Source: Thermocoleostomius sinensis A174
GTDB lineage: Bacteria > Cyanobacteriota > Cyanobacteriia > Elainellales > Elainellaceae
Assembly: GCF_026802175.1 (NCBI RefSeq)
Contig: NZ_CP113797.1
Span: 1,465,026-1,529,025 of the forward strand
Direction: 5' to 3'
Length of the DNA stretch: 64,000 nucleotides
The position numbers were made by a program, and so were the translations under genes. Numbering within the stretch: the stretch's first letter is position 1; the number at the start of each line of letters is the position of its first letter. Positions 29,047-30,942 of the stretch are shown here, one piece after another. The notes below the pieces were generated by a model. The model ran no database searches and was not told where the DNA came from. It saw only the letters and a program-made list of their open reading frames with translations.

Positions 29047-29508
29047 CTAGCTAAGAGCAGCATGGCTGCGATCGTAGGAATCACCAAAGGAAGGATGGAC
29101 TTTCCCTTGAATATGGTTCCAATAGCGGCCGGCCTCATCCCCAGACAAACCAACTCTGGCATCTAAGCGACTCAACATCGCTTGCTGGCGTTGCTTAACT
29201 TTGCGATGGTGATTCATCATTAGCACGCGGGCCCGATCTTGAATTGAGGATGCCGGTGCGTTGATTGTTGCCGCCACCTCTGGAGCGTCTACCTCTGTGG
29301 ATTCGATCGCATCCTTGACTTCAACCGGATTGGCAGTATAGGCCGTGCCGCGATAGAGCAGATCTAGTGTGGGCTGTAATACAGGAACTTTCTTGGGATT
29401 GCGGAACCGAACATCTAGTCCACGATATTTTCCAGACTGGCTGAGATCGCCATATTCCACAGCCGGGGGATTGTATTCGTAACTAACGCCGCGATATTTA
29501 ATCTTCAT
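29047..29508 (-). CDS. DUF4278 domain protein
   Basis: 153 aa. Two copies of the DUF4278 motif: MKIKYRGVSYEYNPPAVEY with GKYRGLDVRFRNPKK at the N-terminus, and LDLLYRGTAYTANP at about 48-61. The C-terminal half is a basic helix-rich segment with MMNHHRKVKQRQQAMLSRLDARVGL. DUF4278 proteins are small cyanobacterial proteins of unknown function. The promoter-side region (29509-29600) has a strong Shine-Dalgarno-like AGGCGAAGACC just upstream of the start. Confidence 0.85.
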   Translation of the reverse strand: MKIKYRGVSYEYNPPAVEYGDLSQSGKYRGLDVRFRNPKKVPVLQPTLDLLYRGTAYTANPVEVKDAIESTEVDAPEVAATINAPASSIQDRARVLMMNHHRKVKQRQQAMLSRLDARVGLSGDEAGRYWNHIQGKVHPSFGDSYDRSHAALS

Positions 29509-29695
29509 GGTCTTCGCCTCTCGAATTCAACGTAGTGATGTGAGGCGCGTTCCTTCGGGGACTTCCCTACTTCCGTCCTTTCAATCTGCACTTCTTGGAT
29601 GATTGAAGGATGAACGATTTATCTTTCTGTATCTATTGTTACGGTTTTGACGGTTTTTGTCAACACCTAACGAAAAAATATCAGAAAATCTTGAC

Positions 29696-30050
29696 TTATA
29701 CAGCAATTGCCGCCATGACAACATCCTTGAGTTGCGATCGTTGTCGTAGAGATTCAATCACCTGTTCAGCGGCGATTGGAGTTCCGGTCAGCAGAATGGT
29801 CTGTCCATCCGTGGTCTGAGCAATCTTTCGGATTGAATTGAGGTGGCGGCAAGATTCAGATCGGCTAAGGTCGTGGCTTGCACCACTGCAATTGGGCGCA
29901 GACGCGAATCATCATAGCCATAAGCTTCGACCTGCACGACTTTCGAGAGACGGGGTCCCGTTGCAGTCCCTGTTTTTTGCGCTCGGTGACTTGGAATCGC
30001 AAAATTAATCGTCCATCTTCTATCGCCACTGGCTCCGATGATTGAAACAT
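29696..30050 (-). pseudogene. Frameshifted small conserved gene (two single-base shifts)
   Basis: Three minus-strand segments in different frames read as one coherent protein of about 118 aa: MFQSSEPVAIEDGRLILRFQ... from ATG 30050; then TGTATGPRLSKVVQVEAYGYDDSRLRPI...LAATSIQS; then RKIAQTTDGQTILLTGTPIAAEQVIESL...VVMAAIAV ending in TAA at 29696. The first change of frame falls in a run of six A (29973-29978), the second near 29830. Restoring one base at each site joins all parts. Either a decayed gene, sequencing errors, or (for the A-run) translational or transcriptional slippage. I do not know the family name. Confidence 0.7.
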
Positions 30051-30115
30051 CCATACAATACCTAGAAGTGTCCGATCGGGATGAGCTTATAGGTTCGTAT
30101 AAGCACGTACAAGCA

Positions 30116-30673
30116 TCAGAGTAGCAGGGGAAATTCTGCCTGAACGTGCCACTGTTGACCATTGTGAAGAAATAGTGTGAGTCGATCGCTTAGAAAGGTG
30201 AACTCAACCGCTTGGGCGGCTAGCTCTGCCCAAGCTTGCTTAAATGACTGCCGGGTTACGTTGCGAGAAGCGACCGTAAGATGAGGAGCAAAGGAACGCT
30301 GTTTCGAGACTGGGTCTACAATATCGAGTTGCTGTTTTAGGTGAGCCATCAAGGTAGACTGCAATTGCAATAGCTCTGGTGTTTTTACAACGTTGATAAA
30401 CAAAACGCGGGGCGCAAACACACCAAACCCGGATAACTGAATTGGAACGGGCGCTTGCGCCTGAGCTACGGTCTGAAGTTCACTGTGTAACCTTGAGATG
30501 GCGTCGATCGACCACAAAAAGGGGGGTTGCAGGGTAATGTGGGGTGGGGCTTTGGCGGTGCGCATACGATAGCGATCGGTGAGGTCTTGAATTACCTGAT
30601 TGGCATAATCCTGAATGGCAGGCGGTGGCAACAGTCCTACAAAAAAACGGGATGGGCGATCGGAGGAGGGCAT
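30116..30673 (-). CDS. 2H phosphoesterase, RNA 2',3'-cyclic phosphodiesterase-like (ThpR/LigT family)
   Basis: 185 aa from ATG 30673; a TTG lies three codons upstream. The two catalytic HxT/S motifs are present as PHITLQ (about 42-46) and PHLTVA (about 141-145), with RFFVGLLPPPAIQDYANQV at the start as in the family. Members hydrolyse 2',3'-cyclic phosphodiester or ligate RNA ends in vitro; the physiological substrate in bacteria is not settled. Upstream of the pseudogene in the same direction (66 nt between). Confidence 0.85.
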   Translation of the reverse strand: MPSSDRPSRFFVGLLPPPAIQDYANQVIQDLTDRYRMRTAKAPPHITLQPPFLWSIDAISRLHSELQTVAQAQAPVPIQLSGFGVFAPRVLFINVVKTPELLQLQSTLMAHLKQQLDIVDPVSKQRSFAPHLTVASRNVTRQSFKQAWAELAAQAVEFTFLSDRLTLFLHNGQQWHVQAEFPLLL

Positions 30674-30942
30674 TCTAGTCAACTCTAATTAATCGTGATT
30701 AATTGTACGGCTAGCATCTTCCTAATTGTGGGGAATGCTCAACCAACCGCGCCGATTTGCGTTGCAACTCTTTATTGCAACCGATTATTGCAACTGAGAT
30801 CTCAGTTGCCTCGATTTTCGGTACACTTTGGAAAAATTCTAAAGTTCAGAGAAAATTAAATCAATCCACCTTCAATCAACAGCCAGAGAGCAACAGCTAG
30901 GTTGTTCAGCTTTATTGTTTGTAGCGCTAACTCACCAATTCT

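Follow-up and report, generated by a model that had tools for sequence, protein, structure and literature searches.

The findings in this study indicated, with a high degree of confidence, that a 359-nt locus of Thermocoleostomius sinensis A174 is the pseudogene scar of a lost two-gene unit, a dehydrogenase gene and its ACT-domain partner, left by ordinary gene loss. The locus occupies positions 30054-29696 of the minus strand, within a 607-nt spacer of the window, the latter being the whole 64,000-nt stretch of DNA that was analyzed. Two features expected of a pseudogene were found: homology to intact genes elsewhere, and lesions removing essential parts and the reading frame, three in total (a deletion of ~1.15 kb, a net loss of 4 nt and a net loss of 1 nt). 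We infer that the remnant yields no product. The features of the locus and its neighbors are listed in Table 1.

Table 1. Remnants, lesions and neighboring features of the locus, in window coordinates.
Feature	Coordinates	Strand	Evidence
LigT / 2'-5' RNA ligase-like protein, 188 aa, intact upstream neighbor	30116..30682	-	PF13563, E 1e-25
Dehydrogenase remnant, codons 1-11 (MDVSIIGASGD), lactate/malate-dehydrogenase-like gene	30022..30054	-	N-terminus matches; tblastn E 8e-4
GCGAT, inferred junction of the ~1.15-kb deletion	30022..30026	-	Hand comparison of the window with L036 and L037 sequences
ACT-protein remnant, segment 1: AIEDGRLILRFQVTERKKQGLQR	29958..30026	-	Frameshift-aware profile alignment; tblastn 64% identity over 22 aa, same frame
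A6 run, codons of the conserved Lys pair, not a break	29973..29978	-	Column counts over 19 homologues
Second lesion: 5 nt against three codons in homologues, net loss 4 nt	29953..29957	-	Frameshift-aware alignment at low frameshift costs
ACT-protein remnant, segment 2: RLSKVVQVEAYGYDD...SIQSE	29827..29952	-	Joined-protein search; frameshift-aware alignment; tblastn
Third lesion: 2 nt against one codon in homologues, net loss 1 nt	29825..29826	-	Frameshift-aware alignment
ACT-protein remnant, segment 3, through the original stop codon: IAQTTDGQTILLTG...AAIAV*	29696..29824	-	Joined-protein search; frameshift-aware alignment
Promoter-like TTGACA and TAACAAT before the riboswitch	29663-29658; 29641-29635	-	By eye; resembles relatives' spacers
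Glutamine riboswitch (RF01739) of the downstream neighbor	29544..29618	-	56.5 bits
DUF4278 protein, 153 aa, gifB/IF17-like, intact downstream neighbor	29047..29508	-	PF14105, E 3.6e-19

A preliminary description of the window had pointed to three consecutive coding-like segments in three minus-strand frames (30050-29696), and this observation held, as all three were aligned to one protein family. The description had also proposed that the segments join into one 118-aa protein and that this be searched for in relatives. The joined-protein search gave hits in 10 of 60 genomes. One of these was the window's own genome, in pieces; the remaining 9, from 59 other relatives, carried an intact homologue in one frame. 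A single-sequence search with the joined protein over genome contigs returned no match; an alignment of 8 intact homologues used as the query then succeeded, matching 16 named loci and finding the protein in 18 of 388 genomes of the class (E<=1e-10). Nineteen distinct intact proteins of 153-178 aa were collected, each in one frame. The segments are not a complete gene; they cover the C-terminal ~110 residues of a protein of ~155 aa, beginning ~44 residues into the family, and the ATG at 30050 that had been taken as the start is out of frame. When the missing ACT N-terminus was sought upstream of 30050, no trace scored better than chance, with 29 of 100 shuffled sequences doing equally well.

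All 8 intact homologues scanned contained an ACT domain resembling that of acetolactate synthase small subunits, with PF22629 and PF01842 each in 8 of 8 at E<=0.1. The homologue L009 reached 29.0 bits against the 27 bits required for PF01842, while most of this domain is missing from the window remnant; the joined 118-aa protein gave chance-level Pfam matches only, because the recognizable ACT half was deleted. The intact homologues share their ACT domain and a similar length with the small subunit itself (IlvN/IlvH; TIGR00119, PF22629), but they fall far short of the TIGR00119 equivalog cut-off of 56.9 bits, the listed member scoring 23.4 bits. The window's genome encodes a separate, true TIGR00119 protein (C1:1196493-1196963, 220.8 bits), and no second homologue of the ACT protein was detected in that genome at E<=1e-10.

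The frame breaks were placed by frameshift-aware alignment of the window with a profile of the 19 homologues. At the first break within the ACT part, five nucleotides (29957-29953) stand for three codons, and at the second, two nucleotides (29826-29825) stand for one codon. When the frameshift cost was set high, the first was drawn instead as two lost codons and two extra bases, at the same place and with the same net change. The gene had been described as broken by frameshifts that one restored base each would repair, at an A6 run and near 29830; the frameshifts themselves were confirmed, and the second site was close to the mark, with a net change of one nucleotide. The A6 run does lie at 29978-29973, as described, but it is not the break, and four nucleotides rather than one are lost at the true first site. 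The run encodes a conserved K-K/K-Q pair and the frame is unchanged across it: the upstream frame matched the homologues for five codons past A6, through ...ERKKQGLQR, and tblastn independently extended it to the same Arg. The Leu three residues past the Lys pair is invariant in the 19 homologues, 17 of which also have the Arg at the fifth residue past the pair; a break placed at A6 would match neither.

These placements bear directly on the proposal that polymerase or ribosome slippage at A6 (a ribosomal -1 frameshift or transcriptional slippage, programmed or tolerated) allows the overlapping frames to be expressed as a single protein. The run does lie in the upstream frame and near a frame change, but the change falls 16-20 nt 3' of A6 and has a net size of -4 nt. 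A canonical slippery heptamer has the form X XXY YYZ; by inspection, the zero-frame codons at the run, CGC AAA AAA CAG, contain none, and no such heptamer in the correct frame was found at the frame change. Nor is the frame change conserved, as every one of the 19 homologues has a single reading frame. Even with slippage at A6, the second break and the missing N-terminal third would remain. Judged from the alignments, slippage is unnecessary and is contradicted by the homologues, and we give it almost no credence.

The largest lesion was absent from the preliminary description. The dehydrogenase start in the window was found because the neighbors of the intact homologues were compared. In 14 of 15 named loci, a gene for a dehydrogenase of ~350 aa, starting MDVSIIGASGDCGRE in several of them, lies directly upstream of the ACT gene; a direct search placed the dehydrogenase upstream in 16 of 16 named loci (partial at a contig end in L048), and by coordinates it lies within about 80 nt of the ACT gene in all 18 ACT-bearing genomes of the class. 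Three more genomes carried only a diverged relative of the dehydrogenase (39-41% identical), without the ACT gene. The dehydrogenase is lactate/malate-dehydrogenase-like (PF00056 and PF02866) and scored below every NCBIfam cut-off. The window's genome contains only a distant malate dehydrogenase, 36% identical, and no match to the dehydrogenase at E<=1e-40. In an alignment of the dehydrogenases of the intact pairs (L033-L048; for example, L036:1955-3465) with that malate dehydrogenase, the D-S-x-R-F and HG-D/E motifs were common to both and the substrate-loop region differed. The pair is patchy even within genera: two of the five g4 genomes carry it, as does one of the two in g3. Two Guanidine-I riboswitches lie on opposite strands near one intact ACT locus (L044:4819-5322). 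A narrow literature search on the dehydrogenase and ACT pair returned no paper, and we make no claim about prior publication.

In the window, MDVSIIGASGD (30054-30022, minus strand) runs straight into the final ~110 codons of the ACT gene, which lie in a different frame, and the ATG at 30050 is an out-of-frame ATG inside the dehydrogenase start, ATGGATGTTTCA. Drouetiella hepatica (L037), Pegethrix bostrychoides (L033), Phormidium tenue FACHB-886 (L035) and others carry the intact unit. Its dehydrogenase N-terminus is identical to the window's at 11 of 11 residues in L035, L036, L037 and L047 and at 10 of 11 in L033, and 23-28 of the 33 nt were identical in 14 loci; elsewhere in the six-frame translation of the window, no site reached more than 6 of 11 matches. 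The C-terminal two-thirds of the ACT protein, the gene order and the strand are likewise the same as in the intact units. The window copy differs from them by the absence of ~1.15 kb across both genes (~1,150 nt, calculated by hand from L037 coordinates), by the two frame-shifting lesions, and by its chromosomal site, as LigT and DUF4278 are absent from the examined flanks of intact loci. The genus was represented in the comparison set by the window's own genome alone, so the undeleted ancestor of the locus was not seen. The GCGAT at the junction, which fits both the dehydrogenase side and the ACT side, is a possible microhomology.

The deletion could also be read as having created a new chimeric gene, since the dehydrogenase start codon opens an ORF of 88 codons (30054-29788) that would encode a putative new peptide just upstream of the glutamine-sensing gifB-like gene. 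The frame stays open from the native ATG of the dehydrogenase gene, but the ORF consists of MDVSIIGASGD, an out-of-frame stretch of about 23 codons of junk, and 42 native ACT residues, after which its C-terminus enters a foreign frame. The ACT core is lost and the arrangement occurred in no homologue found, leaving a new gene extremely improbable.

Another explanation is sequencing or assembly error, by which either the two minor indels or the entire break would be artefacts and the gene would be intact in the living strain. The 1-nt loss adjoins a short A run, the first small break lies among short G and C runs, and the residues of the remnant are well conserved, so that the small indels taken alone could be read as sequence errors. 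Against this, base errors cannot account for the loss of ~1.15 kb with precisely the beginning of the adjacent operon gene left in place. The assembly is one contig of 5.81 Mb with an estimated completeness of 99.98%. In the syntenic stretch of the relative G010 (11 ORFs, 7 of them matching the window over nearly their whole length), all 7 matched neighboring genes are intact in a single frame in the window, in agreement with the earlier statement that the neighbors are intact. As for the earlier opinion that random sequencing error is less likely, such error alone is insufficient when most of two genes is missing, and we regard the artefact as very unlikely.

The age of the scar was considered from a tree of the C-terminal part, in which the remnant was placed among homologues of the same family with support of 87/89. 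Its end branch (0.54) lies within the range of the intact homologues (0.03-0.87; 106 columns) and thus suggested no sign of long neutral drift. The decay may be recent, or the tree test may be without power at 106 columns.

The surroundings of the remnant were compared with those in relatives. Of the 35 other relatives searched, 29 have the LigT-like protein, 2 of these by short, weak matches, and the order seen in the window, LigT followed by the riboswitch and DUF4278, is repeated in relatives. In PMC6316151, DUF4278, the glutamine riboswitch and the gifB/IF17 glutamine synthetase inactivating factor arrangement are linked, and window positions 29047-29618 (minus strand) match the arrangement as given there. 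LigT and DUF4278 are neighbors in 13 relatives where both were readable, with spacers of 100-337 nt in 11 of them and of 662 and 729 nt in the other two, G015 and G021, whose spacers contain an additional riboswitch copy and a short DUF4278-like ORF; both of these genomes have the intact pair at a different location. No match to the remnant or to either protein of the pair was found in these 13 spacers, and subtracting the remnant from the window's 607-nt spacer leaves 248 nt, similar to the 100-337 nt of relatives; the remnant therefore sits in a spacer otherwise conserved in plan. Among the intact loci searched, no synteny with LigT, DUF4278 or TpiA was found, and one weak pentapeptide-repeat match was obtained. 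In two relatives (L060:793-1354 and L066:2240-2669), two glutamine riboswitches stand in tandem and, by eye, an additional short DUF4278-like ORF follows LigT, ahead of the main DUF4278 gene. A second region of the window's genome (G000:C1:242705-242760) shares 82% identity over 57 nt with the promoter and riboswitch start of the window, and perhaps precedes another riboswitch-controlled DUF4278 gene.

Under the gene-loss explanation, the spacer between the LigT gene and the DUF4278 gene with its riboswitch would once have contained the dehydrogenase-ACT unit. Through a deletion of ~1.15 kb, codon 11 of the dehydrogenase gene would have become fused, out of frame, to approximately codon 44 of the ACT gene, and the remaining ACT part would have lost a net 4 nt at one site and a net 1 nt at another, each loss shifting the frame. 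The three lesions may have arisen in any order, and the pair may either have been gained at this site or have been lost from it in the other relatives.

The locus represents a clear case of operon loss, in which the start of one gene was fused to the end of the next. Read without relatives, such a scar can mimic a small gene that depends on slippage. The unit of dehydrogenase and ACT protein is itself a minor lead, being adjacent in every ACT-bearing genome found and patchy across the cyanobacteria.
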